Source of the DNA: Patescibacteria group bacterium
GTDB taxonomy: Archaea > Nanobdellota > Nanobdellia > Pacearchaeales > GW2011-AR1
Assembly (NCBI GenBank): GCA_019428815.1
Contig: JAHYJW010000001.1
Location: 1 to 47,118, forward strand
Direction of reading: 5' to 3'
DNA length: 47,118 bases
Shown: piece by piece, positions 35,128 to 47,118 of the stretch
Position numbering within the stretch: the first letter of the stretch is position 1
How the letters are laid out: each line of letters begins with the position of its first letter
Made by a program: the position numbers and the translations under genes
Notes under the pieces: model-generated
Told to the model about the DNA's origin: nothing
Seen by the model: the letters and a program-made list of their open reading frames with translations, nothing else
The model's database searches: none

Positions 35128-35220
35128 ATGGCAGAATACGAAGAAACTGAAGAAGAAGATCTCACTGAAAAAGATTCAGATGAAGACACTGAAAAAGATT
35201 CAGATGATGATGAAGAATAA
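35128..35220 (+). CDS. Predicted 30-aa acidic microprotein MAEYEETEEEDLTEKDSDEDTEKDSDDDEE
   Basis: ATG..TAA read directly; preceded by TATA-like tatttaaaaacc; contains a 24-bp tandem repeat. Below the ORF-track cutoff. Confidence 0.55.
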   Translation: MAEYEETEEEDLTEKDSDEDTEKDSDDDEE

Positions 35221-36045: not shown

Positions 36046-36167
36046 TTAAGATTTTTCTTATCTTTGATAACTACTTTTTCCTTAAGATTTTCTTTTAAAT
36101 TTTAAATAGATGTTCATCTAAATTATAGAAATATTTTTAAAGAAGAAGATACATCTTTCTCTATTAT

Positions 36168-36372
36168 ATTAATTTATTCAGTTGGGGGATTGAATAAATT
36201 AATTTTGTCTTTGAGTGAATTCTTTAATATTAGTTGGACGTTTGTCAACTTTTTAAACTTTTCGAAATAAAGTTTAAAAAAATTGATAATTCTTCCGACT
36301 TTAAAAAAACCTGACGGATAAAATTTCCGTAAACTCTTTGATATCAAAGAGGGGAAAAAGCTGAAAGGAGGT
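36168..36372 (+). promoter_or_regulatory. Structured 5' leader of ftsZ with hairpins and strong Shine-Dalgarno
   Basis: 13-bp inverted repeat 36168-36180/36191-36203; hairpin ACGGA..TCCGT 36314-36330; 18-nt palindrome CTCTTTGATATCAAAGAG 36334-36351; SD AAAGGAGGT 36364-36372, 6 nt before ATG. Confidence 0.7.
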
Positions 36373-36378
36373 TAAAAA

Positions 36379-37455
36379 ATGGTATTAGATTTTGCAAAAG
36401 AAGCAGTACAAAACGCAGAAACACATAGTATTAACTTTGATGACCTAAAAGCTGGAAAGGCTAATATAAAAGTTATTGGTGTTGGAGGAATGGGTTGTAA
36501 CGCAATAACTTGGTTATTCAATAAAGGGATTAATGGTGCTACAGTTTATGCAGTGAACACAGATGCTCTTCATTTAAGTGTTTCCAAATCAGACGAAAAA
36601 ATCCTTTTAGGTAAGGAACTTACAAGAGGATTGGGTGCTGGAGGAAAACCTCAAGTAGGGAGAGAATCTGCAAAAGAGGCACTTAGTGAATTGAAAAAAG
36701 CAGTCTCTGGAGCAGATATGGTCTTTGTTTTAGCAGGGCTTGGAGGAGGTACCGGAACTGGTGCTGTCCCAGTTATTGCACAACTTGCTAAGGAAACTGG
36801 AGCAGTAGTAATCGGGGTGGTTACAATGCCTTTCGAATCTGAAAAAGCAAGAATAGACAAAGCTGAATTTGGATTACAAGAACTTAGAGAGGTTACAGAT
36901 ACTTGTGTTGTTTTAGATAACAATAGACTGGTGGATATCGCAGGACAACTCCCAATTGAACAAGCATTTGCAGTAGCAAATGAACTTGTTAGTACAATGA
37001 TAAAGGGAATTGTTGAAACTATCACTTTACCAAGTTTAATTAACTTGGATTATGCAGACGTTTCAGCAATAATGAAAGATGGAGGTGTTGCAGTGATAGG
37101 TATAGGTGAAGACGATTCTTCAGAGCGTGTTAGTCAAGCTGTTAGGCAAGCCCTTACACATCCTCTACTTGACGTGGATTATAAAGGTGCCAATGGAGCT
37201 TTGATACACGTTACCTGTGGCCCAGATTTGAAATTAGAGGAATTTGATCAGATTGGTAGAATTGTCTCTGATAATTTAGGCCCAGAAGCAAATGTGATTA
37301 TTGGAGCAAGAATTAGTAAAGAATTCCAGGGTAGGGTTCGTGTCATAACTATAATGACAGGAGTTCGATCACCATATCTTATTGGAAAAGACTTTGAAGA
37401 AAAACCCGCTACTCTTAAAGAGATATCTGATTTGGGTATAGAAGTCTGGAAATAA
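36379..37455 (+). CDS. ftsZ: Cell division protein FtsZ
   Basis: IKVIGVGGMGCNAI; VLAGLGGGTGTGAVPVIA; VTMPFESEKARIDKAEFGLQEL; NNRL; YADVSAIMKDGGVAVIGIG. Confidence 0.97.
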   Translation: MVLDFAKEAVQNAETHSINFDDLKAGKANIKVIGVGGMGCNAITWLFNKGINGATVYAVNTDALHLSVSKSDEKILLGKELTRGLGAGGKPQVGRESAKEALSELKKAVSGADMVFVLAGLGGGTGTGAVPVIAQLAKETGAVVIGVVTMPFESEKARIDKAEFGLQELREVTDTCVVLDNNRLVDIAGQLPIEQAFAVANELVSTMIKGIVETITLPSLINLDYADVSAIMKDGGVAVIGIGEDDSSERVSQAVRQALTHPLLDVDYKGANGALIHVTCGPDLKLEEFDQIGRIVSDNLGPEANVIIGARISKEFQGRVRVITIMTGVRSPYLIGKDFEEKPATLKEISDLGIEVWK

Positions 37456-39458: not shown

Positions 39459-39557
39459 CGCCCGAGACTGGACTCGAACCAGCGACCTAACGGTTTCCGC
39501 CTTTTAAATTTGCGATTTTTAACAGCCGTTCGCTCTGACCAACTGAGCTACTCGGGC
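39459..39557 (-). tRNA. tRNA-Asn (GTT) with 25-nt intron
   Basis: GCCCGAG TA GCTC..GAGC G AACGG CTGTTA[intron]A CCGTT AGGTC GCTGG TTCGAGT CCAGT CTCGGGC G; acceptor and anticodon stems pair after removing 25 nt at the canonical 37/38 site; G73. Confidence 0.93.
39495..39519 (-). other. tRNA-Asn intron AAAATCGCAAATTTAAAAGGCGGAA (37/38 position)
   Basis: Excess nucleotides in the anticodon loop; exact boundary assumes the canonical site and is ambiguous within the A-run. Confidence 0.8.
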
Positions 39558-44048: not shown

Positions 44049-47000
44049 TTAGGTTCTAGCGACATATCCTCTTTTTGGTTTGAATATTGCTCCACTTATG
44101 TCTAATTTTGTTAGGGCTTCTTCAATTTCATCTTTTGTTAGCTTACCCTCTAGCTCTTTTTGCAATTCTTCTAGCGGAATCATCTTTCCTATTTTATTCT
44201 CTAAGTTTGTTATGGTATCTCTTACAATAAAAACTTTATTCCTTTGTGATGCAGGCATCCCCCCTGTCCCACGATCAATATCAAAAGTTTTTGATTCATA
44301 GTCATAACCTACTTTTGTGAGATAATACTTCATTATTTCTATGGCTCTTTTAGCATCTTCTATAGCTACTACCTCACTTAGCCTCATTCTAGCAGCAGCT
44401 TCTGACATTCTTATTAACGCCTGTAACTGTCTTGCAGAAATTGGAATAGGTCTTATAGAGCCTTCCGAAGAAACAGGCATATTTCTTAGTTCTACATAAA
44501 ATTTTTTTATTTCTTCAACTGCTTCATCACTCAAAGCAGGATTTATTTTTTGTTTTGTATAAGCTACATACTTTCTGAATAGTTCTTTAGGAATCATCAT
44601 ACTCTCCCCTTGATTTTGATGGGCATTAAGTACATGAGTAGCAATATGTTCGTCAGTTTTCCTGTCTGGAAGATCTCTTAGGGGGAATATAACATCAAAT
44701 CTATTAATTAAAGTTGGAGGTAGGTCGATTTGTTGCGCAATGGGTTGATAAGGGTCAAATCTTCCAAACTTGGGATTTGCTGCTGCTAAAACAGAGGTTT
44801 CAGCTCTTAATGTCGCTTGGACATTTGCTTTACTTATTGTGATTGTGTTATGGAGAATCATTCTGTTTGAAATAAAAGTTTTATGGGGTTCAATAGTTAC
44901 ATCATAAACCCAGTTTATTTTTTTATTGATAATCTTTGAAACTTTTTTGATTTTAGACCAATTAGCATATCCAAATGCTACTTTCTTAAGTTCAGAAATT
45001 TCTTTATTTATCTGAGGATCATTTCTTTTTTTAGCGTAACTTTCTAAGAGAATTAAAATTTTTTGAATAAATTTTCTGTCTTTTTGATGATTTAAATCCT
45101 TTAAATTTTCGGTTTCATTTTTGTAAGGGATATTTAATTCTTTTAATATTTCTATTATTTTTTTGTTACAATTTGGTAAATCGTCCTCTGGAATTTTAGA
45201 ATTTTTGTTTAATTTGAGATATTCTTCTAAAATTTTTTTCTTTGTTATTGAAGAAAATCCTATCTCTTTCTCAAATTTAAGTAAATTTTCTTTTCCTGAA
45301 ATATGAAGCTCCCAATATTTTTTATTTTTGGAAATAGATGATTGAATTCCAAATCTTAAAAGAAGTAAGGCTAATTGTTTTTCGAGTTCTTTATTAGATG
45401 AAATCAAACAAATTTTATAGCCTTCTTTTTTTGATTTTATTAAAGAACCACCCCCATCATAAATTGCCCTTAATAAATTTCTTAAATTTTCTGGCGGCAA
45501 TTGTACAATTTCTTCTGGAATTTTTTGTTCGTTGTAATTTTTTGATAACTTTTTGCTTAAGTCATTTATCTTTCTTAAGGATTCCTTAGAACTAATTTTA
45601 AGAGAGTATAAGCCCCCTTCTTTATTTATAACAGAATCAATTTTAAAGTATCTTTCTAAGGACTGTTTATAATCTTCTATAATTTTTAAATCATTATTAC
45701 AAAATGGCGTTTCTATTCCTTTTTTTATCGGGTTACATATTGTACTAAGATAATACCCTATGACCTTACAAAGTAAGTCATTCTTTTTTTTATATGGTTT
45801 TGATTCAATCTTAATTAAAGAAGGAATAGGGAAGTGCATTCCTTTCCTTAACTTTTCTGCAGGTATAGTAGAAATTTTTCCATCTTTTATAACCCAACAA
45901 GGATGTTCAGGTGTTACTGTTATCTCTTGGCCATTAGAAATCTCAATTTTTATAAGTTTTTTAGGAGCTTTATGCCTGCTTATTCTGTCTACATTTAGGG
46001 GGAAATGTCTTTCAAAATCAGTAGATAAAAGTTTTATATCTTTGACAGGTAAAATCTCACAATTTTTACCTTTTAGAATTTTATCTTTATTCTCACTCAT
46101 TTTTTTATCTACAAGTGGCCCTATTTCTACTTCTTTACCATCGGATAACATTAATTTAAAATCTGGTAAAACGCACTGCTGTTCCATAGCTTCATGCATT
46201 GCACTTCTGTCGTTAGGATCCATTTTTTCAAGTTCATCAATACAAACCAGCCCCTTATTTGCAAGGACCATTGCTCCAGCTTCTAATGACCATCCTCTAA
46301 GATACTCATCACGAACAACTGTTGCAGTCAACCCTGCTCCAGAGGCACTTTTTCCAACCACATATCTTCCTTTAGGAGAGATATTTGCCATAAAACCTAA
46401 TGTTGCGGATTTTGCTACTCCTGGGTCCCCTATGAGAAGTATATGTAAATCCCCCCTAATTTTTTGTCCATCTGCGTGGGTTTTACTAACTCCCCCAAAT
46501 AACTGAAGAACAAGAGACTGTTTTATTTCTTCGTAACCCCACACACTTGGGATAATACTTTTTGTTAATTTATCAAAAACTTGAGGATCTCTTGAAAGTT
46601 CTAATATCTGCCTTTCATCTTCTTCACTTATGTCTAATTCTTCAAATGTTTCTTCCATAGGGATGATATTATTTACTTCTATAGCAAGTTCAAATCTAGT
46701 TGATAACCCCCCAGATTGTAATGGAACTGGAACCTCTTTTAATGTCCCAATAACTTTAACCCTACTTCCAGGAGTTGTTTTTTCTTCCATTTTGGGTTCA
46801 ACAAGGTCTTCTTTAAGGAATGCATTAATTCTTTTTGGCTGTTCTCCTCCAGAAAGGGATTCTGGAGCTTCTTCTATCACTATTCTTTGTGTATCAACCA
46901 TCTCTTTACTTATTAATTTAAAACCCCCCCTTCTTCCACAAGAACACCTCATTGGCTCTCTAAATTTCTTTTCCATTTGTAAAACAGAGATAATTGTTCC

Positions 47001-47118
47001 GCAGGAAGGACATTCAAACTTAGCATTTACAACTTGAGGCCTGACATCACTTGCCTGCCTAATTATTCCTTCAAGAACAATCATTTCATTTAGGTTTTTT
47101 GAACGAATGTTTCTTATT
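44049..47118 (-). CDS. mcm: Replicative helicase MCM, intein-containing, 5' end beyond right edge
   Basis: ILLIGDPGVAKSATLGFMANISPKGRYVVGKSASGAGLTATV; CIDELEKMDPNDRSAMHEAMEQQ; NRFDVIFPLRDLPD. Frame stays open upstream of the track start (..IRNIRSKNLNEMIVLEGIIRQ). Confidence 0.95.
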   Translation of the reverse strand, partial: IRNIRSKNLNEMIVLEGIIRQASDVRPQVVNAKFECPSCGTIISVLQMEKKFREPMRCSCGRRGGFKLISKEMVDTQRIVIEEAPESLSGGEQPKRINAFLKEDLVEPKMEEKTTPGSRVKVIGTLKEVPVPLQSGGLSTRFELAIEVNNIIPMEETFEELDISEEDERQILELSRDPQVFDKLTKSIIPSVWGYEEIKQSLVLQLFGGVSKTHADGQKIRGDLHILLIGDPGVAKSATLGFMANISPKGRYVVGKSASGAGLTATVVRDEYLRGWSLEAGAMVLANKGLVCIDELEKMDPNDRSAMHEAMEQQCVLPDFKLMLSDGKEVEIGPLVDKKMSENKDKILKGKNCEILPVKDIKLLSTDFERHFPLNVDRISRHKAPKKLIKIEISNGQEITVTPEHPCWVIKDGKISTIPAEKLRKGMHFPIPSLIKIESKPYKKKNDLLCKVIGYYLSTICNPIKKGIETPFCNNDLKIIEDYKQSLERYFKIDSVINKEGGLYSLKISSKESLRKINDLSKKLSKNYNEQKIPEEIVQLPPENLRNLLRAIYDGGGSLIKSKKEGYKICLISSNKELEKQLALLLLRFGIQSSISKNKKYWELHISGKENLLKFEKEIGFSSITKKKILEEYLKLNKNSKIPEDDLPNCNKKIIEILKELNIPYKNETENLKDLNHQKDRKFIQKILILLESYAKKRNDPQINKEISELKKVAFGYANWSKIKKVSKIINKKINWVYDVTIEPHKTFISNRMILHNTITISKANVQATLRAETSVLAAANPKFGRFDPYQPIAQQIDLPPTLINRFDVIFPLRDLPDRKTDEHIATHVLNAHQNQGESMMIPKELFRKYVAYTKQKINPALSDEAVEEIKKFYVELRNMPVSSEGSIRPIPISARQLQALIRMSEAAARMRLSEVVAIEDAKRAIEIMKYYLTKVGYDYESKTFDIDRGTGGMPASQRNKVFIVRDTITNLENKIGKMIPLEELQKELEGKLTKDEIEEALTKLDISGAIFKPKRGYVART
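44847..46175 (-). other. MCM intein (443 aa, residues 304-746 of the track ORF)
   Basis: Cys1 after MHEAMEQQ; block B TPEHP; degenerate LAGLIDADG blocks (GYYLSTIC, LLRAIYDGGGSLI); C-terminal VYDVTIEPHKTFISNRMILHN followed by Thr; exteins rejoin as MHEAMEQQ/TITISKANVQATLRAE. Confidence 0.95.

Follow-up and report, generated by a model that had tools for sequence, protein, structure and literature searches.

The window, by which we mean the whole stretch of 47,118 nucleotides that was analysed, carries an ftsZ gene on its plus strand, and a 333-nt gap (36046-36378) lies immediately 5′ of the ftsZ ATG (36379). The host genome is 645 kb long and 85% complete, and stretches of it totalling 261,602 bases served as our genome-wide controls. 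Perfect inverted repeats with arms of at least 12 and loops of 3-12 nt occur only three times in these 261,602 bases, and two of the three fall within the ftsZ gap (36168-36203 and 36250-36280). The features of the ftsZ gap exceed chance. The first of the two repeats had been reported in the first-pass annotation and is exactly as described there, with 13-bp arms ATTAATTTATTCA/TGAATAAATTAAT at 36168-36180/36191-36203 that are 100% complementary around the 10-nt loop GTTGGGGGAT; the second, of 12 bp, had been overlooked. Elsewhere in the window, we noticed an MCM helicase gene with an apparent intein (44049-47084, minus strand; the insert lies between EQQ and TITISKANV of the helicase), a possible small ORF of 30 very acidic aa (MAEYEETEEEDLTEKDSDEDTEKDSDDDEE) between two genes (35128-35220, plus strand), and a 99-nt tRNA match that is probably an intron-containing tRNA gene (39459-39557, minus strand).

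Using a palindromic, orientation-free seed on the upstream regions of the host genome's genes, we learned a promoter profile. Its consensus, a BRE-like AA followed by TTTAWAAA, is located at about -29 from the start codon, and therefore most host genes look leaderless. The profile called 53 of 61 held-out genes forward. The promoters P1, P2 and P3 are sequence predictions of this kind, made on TATA boxes that are nearly palindromic here. The features of the gap and the gene are as follows.

36134..36141, plus strand: P1 TATA box TTTTTAAA with a BRE-like GAAATA before it; profile score 9.8 forward, 3.2 reverse
36138..36228, minus strand: predicted antisense RNA from P2, proposed from the P2 orientation; start near 36228, contains hairpin I, 3′ end a guess
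36168..36203, plus strand: hairpin I (arms 36168-36180 and 36191-36203, loop GTTGGGGGAT) at the predicted 5′ end of the leader; covariation, matches at ftsZ only
36230..36264, minus strand: conserved block with the predicted reverse promoter P2; BRE 36258-36264 (CGAAAAG, minus strand), TATA 36250-36257, initiation region at the AGTTGG end
36250..36280, no strand: second perfect inverted repeat, 12 bp with a 7-nt loop, which sets P2 and P3 back to back in the host genome
36273..36280, plus strand: TATA box of P3, a predicted second forward promoter; profile score 11.9
36334..36351, plus strand: hairpin III, an 18-nt palindrome and the host version of a small hairpin before the Shine-Dalgarno (SD) sequence; p 0.005 in the window, 12 nt before the SD
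36364..36372, plus strand: SD AAAGGAGGT, the longest match of 207 genes
36379..37455, plus strand: ftsZ; Pfam Tubulin 1.4e-46, FtsZ_C 3e-32

We compared the region with Candidatus Pacearchaeota relatives. ftsZ relatives are found in 177 of the 181 genomes of the family, mostly as two copies per genome, and upstream regions were collected from 85 ftsZ loci. Their alignment shows two conserved blocks; from the second of them to the SD, the sequences cannot be aligned. Block 1 consists of a TATA box, a spacing of about 25-30 nt and then a hairpin with an A/T stem and a G/C-rich loop; this hairpin reads TTAATTTATTCA-acttggcggt-TTGAATAAATTAA in many relatives, and the window has the loop GTTGGGGGAT. 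Block 2 reads TTAGTTGGAAGTATGTCAACTATATAAACTTTTCG in the relatives and TTAGTTGGACGTTTGTCAACTTTTTAAACTTTTCG in the window (36230-36264). A second, divergent ftsZ (47% identity) is present on contig C5 of the host genome (105107-106114, minus strand; locus L207). Neither a clear SD nor a match to the covariance model R2 of hairpin I (below) was seen upstream of this copy.

The P1 transcript is predicted to start near 36163. Folding the corresponding leader (36163-36378), we obtained -58.8 kcal/mol, compared with -35.6 ± 4.1 kcal/mol in dinucleotide shuffles (z -5.7), and 0 of 200 shuffles were as stable. The SD lies 6 nt from the ATG and has a 7-nt match, the longest among 207 genes of at least 120 aa; in 167 of these, no SD match at the first start codon reaches 4 nt. 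An SD-like sequence is also present in 84 of the 85 relatives. The earlier proposal of a specially controlled ftsZ leader thus holds as far as the structured leader, the unusually strong SD and the conserved, covarying 13-bp hairpin are concerned, and is not supported in its idea that an AACCT/AGGTT pairing masks the SD. Both sequences are present (36308-36312 and 36369-36373), and their stem is predicted when a short P3 leader (start at 36302, about 76 nt) is folded to minimum energy. However, they belong to a stretch that does not align between relatives, even within the genus. Pairing of the SD with an upstream pyrimidine tract, a further candidate, was weak over the relatives (6/49, Fisher 0.016) and absent in the window (p 0.75), and we found no conserved anti-SD pairing in the relatives of the kind that an SD-sequestering translational switch would have. 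The pair ACGGA/TCCGT is at its claimed positions (36314-36318 and 36326-36330) and lies in the same unalignable stretch. The 18-nt palindrome at 36334-36351 fares better. Its sequence also belongs to the unalignable part, but it is the local version of a recurring small hairpin of lineage-variable sequence, 10-16 nt before the SD, in 19 of 85 relatives at p<=0.05 (Fisher 4.5e-7). Searching Rfam, we found only tRNAs in the window at the gathering threshold; at E<=10 there were only far sub-threshold matches to unrelated families, and no riboswitch or described cis-regulatory RNA.

We examined hairpin I for conserved structure. When regions were selected on nothing except where they lie with respect to block 2, the best hairpin proved better than its dinucleotide shuffles at p<=0.05 in 38 of 74 loci (Fisher 1e-26). 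The first-pass annotation had suggested covariation among relatives as a check on its leader, and the 13-bp hairpin is indeed conserved and covarying upstream of ftsZ, within the family as well as in further families of its order. Of the 13 pairs, 6 changed on both sides when 18 copies were aligned with MAFFT (A2), and 1 of 500 shuffles scored as high. The 41 copies matching R2 (alignment A4) show compensatory changes at 10 of 13 pairs; 0 of 500 shuffles reach any of five measures, and sliding the pairing drops the paired fraction from 91% to at most 47%. As A4 was fitted to R2 and contains two rows that read the palindrome from the opposite strand, the 18-copy MAFFT count is the more conservative one, and in both alignments the sequences are related by descent, making the covariation counts non-independent events. 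RNAalifold returned no pairs on a MAFFT alignment of 49 mixed copies, because two stem registers are mixed there; a homogeneous subset with an explicit stem resolved this. We conclude that hairpin I is under selection as a structure.

Scanning 132 whole genomes of the order with R2, we obtained matches in 23, at one place each and always just upstream of ftsZ; the single doubtful case was checked and agrees. The matching genomes include two other families of the order (f3 and f6), and a wider sample of the class gave no match outside the order. R2 remains upstream of ftsZ although the next gene upstream varies. A dispersed repeat or a trans-acting small RNA was rejected as an identity for the element, as no copy was found away from ftsZ. 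Under the strict filters used, R2 was found in only those 23 of 132 genomes, and hairpin I was recognised in 49 of the 85 upstream regions; it has therefore been lost or become unrecognisable in many genera. Taken as a whole, the gap is probably a module for cis-regulation in Pacearchaeota that serves ftsZ alone, and its conservation is well supported. Two local elaborations were also seen. Between hairpin I and P2, some relatives (e.g. L059, L064 and L093) carry a recurring TTGTATGCATACAA palindrome followed by GAGGTGATTTCTCCTCTTTTTC, a terminator-like stem with a U tract; in the clade of L037, L043, L047, L049 and L050, an outer stem GCCTCA/TGAGGC encloses hairpin I in place of the terminator-like stem.

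The loop of hairpin I differs sharply in composition from its stem (G+C 0.56 vs 0.11). Of 49 loops, 17 contain UUGGCG or its complement, compared with 0.3 expected in shuffled loops, and the window has UUGGGG in this place. In 22 of 49 relatives, the window included, the sense-strand loop contains UUGG, a YUNR sequence. In a few lineages (L022, L051, L052 and L065) the loop is reverse-complemented, which is compatible with a sense/antisense pair because such a pair would allow either orientation.

The promoter profile also gave an orientation for the second block. P1 scores forward in 47 of 49 relatives, and block 2 scores reverse in 47 of 49 (CGAAAAG-TTTATATAG, minus strand), with a reverse score of 12.5 in the window; it is the only such site in the host genome. 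The first-pass annotation had pointed out AGTTG..CAACT in this block (36232-36236 and 36246-36250); the motif is where it was placed and is conserved, but the predicted promoter that the block holds had been missed. By its profile score, the P2 signature reads away from ftsZ. It lies about 120 bp downstream of P1, on the opposite strand and facing P1. The reverse promoter also goes together with hairpin I: it is found in 33 of 49 loci with hairpin I and in 4 of 36 without (p 1.7e-7), and several loci without hairpin I have a simple forward promoter nearer to ftsZ instead (about -60 to -115). We considered two other roles for the block. A forward ftsZ promoter was rejected on the reverse orientation given by the profile, and a promoter for a leftward upstream gene was rejected with the neighbour on the plus strand in 40 of 47 cases. 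The region thus probably makes an antisense RNA too, judging from the promoter signatures.

The window has a further peculiarity at P3, a predicted forward promoter created by the second inverted repeat. Its RNA would start near 36302, between the conserved hairpin I and ftsZ, and equivalents between P2 and the ATG are rare in the relatives. The window may use both the long P1 leader and the short P3 leader. As a separate observation, long inverted repeats flank the P2 TATA block in the window (36232-36300) and in L028, L029, L036, L052 and L055, and their sequences co-change between lineages. Tested across the loci, the long stem that they form around P2 (hairpin II) reaches significance in 12 of 49 (Fisher 7e-8), and the window is not among them by the same test.

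Combining these observations, we propose a mechanism for the control of ftsZ. The ftsZ mRNA from P1 would have a leader some 215 nt long, with hairpin I at its start and the strong SD at its end, while P2 would give a short antisense RNA overlapping the first ~65 nt of that leader. Both RNAs could fold hairpin I because it is a near-perfect palindrome, and as their G/C-rich loops are complementary, the two hairpins might first meet at their loops and pair afterwards, as the RNAs of cis-antisense systems do; an A/T stem carrying a G/C-rich loop would suit such a kissing contact. The expected outcome is a dose-dependent lowering of ftsZ expression (the sign is probably negative), in which the paired leader would be lost or ended prematurely, the two polymerases would collide, or both. 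The sequences show the covarying hairpin, its link to ftsZ alone among the matches found, the two opposed promoter signatures and the SD; the synthesis of both RNAs, their pairing and the direction of the effect are what we infer from these features. Given the predicted overlap of the two RNAs, the G/C-rich loop, the enrichment of UUGGCG and the YUNR turns, we favour cis-antisense control by loop-loop contact, convergent transcription or both. In the window, mRNA from P3 could lack hairpin I, which counts against the antisense reading, as do the UUGGGG loop of the window, the patchy occurrence of hairpin I and the absence of a pseudoknot partner for its loop (below). On balance, we regard it as an even call that the ftsZ message has a structured leader and that a convergent, cis-encoded antisense RNA shares the 5′ hairpin of this leader.

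The strongest rival is a structured 5′ leader that acts without any antisense RNA, since the hairpin evidence alone does not need P2. Hairpin I would then protect the mRNA or serve as the binding site of a ligand or protein. The reverse TATA block would be a motif within the RNA, or else a promoter that is weak or there by chance. The covarying hairpin I, the z of -5.7 for the long leader, the covarying stem around P2 in 12 of 49 loci and the small hairpin before the SD would all fit one sense-strand RNA. However, this explanation makes it a coincidence that 47 of 49 relatives have the reverse promoter signature and that this signature goes together with hairpin I. Loops are found in both orientations, which should not be possible if a ligand or protein recognised a specific sequence in a single RNA; nor does Rfam offer a match. 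We consider it rather unlikely.

The palindromes could instead act as DNA. Hairpin I, which directly follows the P1 start, and the AGTTG..CAACT block would then be operators for a transcription factor that represses ftsZ, in a role like that of CdrS/CdrL in haloarchaea. The sites are palindromic and located right at the promoters, and the AGTTGGAAGTATGTCAACT block is strongly conserved in sequence. For hairpin I, however, the arms change with the pairing kept and are replaced outright in some lineages, leaving no fixed palindromic sequence; within 3 mismatches, the host genome has no second site beyond chance-level matches, and the relatives have none away from ftsZ. We judge operators improbable as the explanation, although the AGTTG..CAACT block may be one. 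Still less credible is an independent gene for a small RNA that would lie between P1 and the T-rich stretch preceding P2, act in trans and neighbour ftsZ only by chance. P1, hairpin I and, in many relatives, the terminator-like GAGGTGATTTCTCCTCTTTTTC do make up a complete short gene, but all matches in the 132 genomes are upstream of ftsZ and the terminator-like part is absent in the window's genus, so that we give this possibility very little credence.

If antisense control is true, it would be an RNA brake on archaeal cell division that has been kept across several families of the order, and, should the antisense RNA be real, the logic of plasmid copy control and of E. coli StfZ would be applied to an archaeal division gene. 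The element itself is an RNA-like family absent from Rfam and tied to ftsZ in every match found. It bears on the control of cell division in DPANN archaea with genomes near 0.6 Mb, in a host where most genes are apparently without a leader or an SD. Searching the open-access literature (subscription papers were outside the scope), we found nothing on an ftsZ leader or an antisense RNA to ftsZ in DPANN archaea, and the archaeal ftsZ regulators in the literature searched were only proteins, CdrS/CdrL.

These proteins, of the ribbon-helix-helix type, control haloarchaeal ftsZ2 (PMC7439475, PMC8406309). Like their system, the Pacearchaeota module would control an archaeal ftsZ specifically and from the region in front of the gene; it differs in that CdrS/CdrL are protein regulators; antisense RNA is unmentioned in PMC7439475. 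Another parallel, for the proposed RNA, is E. coli StfZ. PMC9628754 describes it as a cis-antisense RNA to ftsZ mRNA, 366-552 nt long, made in the ftsA-ftsZ region from three promoters and lowering FtsZ when overexpressed. The likeness is an antisense RNA opposite the start of ftsZ, here a predicted one; the difference is that the archaeal RNA is predicted to be short and to overlap the leader only, and we claim no sequence relation.

Sense/antisense pairs, for example hok/Sok and pIP501 RNAII/RNAIII, typically make contact at loops with a YUNR turn (PMC6562991). The UUGG loop of hairpin I shares this feature on the sense strand, whereas the ftsZ element has neither a toxin gene nor a plasmid replication gene, and its pairing is putative. 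The IncI-alpha/IncB plasmids, with Inc RNA and the rep leader, are also comparable. There, leader and countertranscript have a common hairpin, as is predicted here, and 5′-rUUGGCG-3′ is the target-loop motif of the ColIb-P9 antisense system by the title of Asano et al. 1998 (cited in PMC10724649); the identical UUGGCG is found in the sense-strand loop of 16 of 49 relatives, with UUGGGG in the window. Two further IncI traits were looked for and rejected here. A pseudoknot between the loop and the stretch before the SD reached p<=0.05 in 2 of 49 relatives (Fisher 0.77), leaving the loop without such a partner, and the short frames after GAGGTG, which might have been a leader peptide, are not conserved by eye in the aligned relatives. 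The ftsZ controlled here is also chromosomal, in contrast to a plasmid rep gene, and the apparent resemblance is one of principle, not of homology. In its kind, the module would belong with cis-antisense or leader control as known elsewhere, a membership that is putative here. We hold only tentatively the fuller proposal that ftsZ in Pacearchaeota is under a cis-encoded antisense RNA of the plasmid copy-control kind, in which convergent promoters, a common hairpin and a kissing loop would set the dose of FtsZ.
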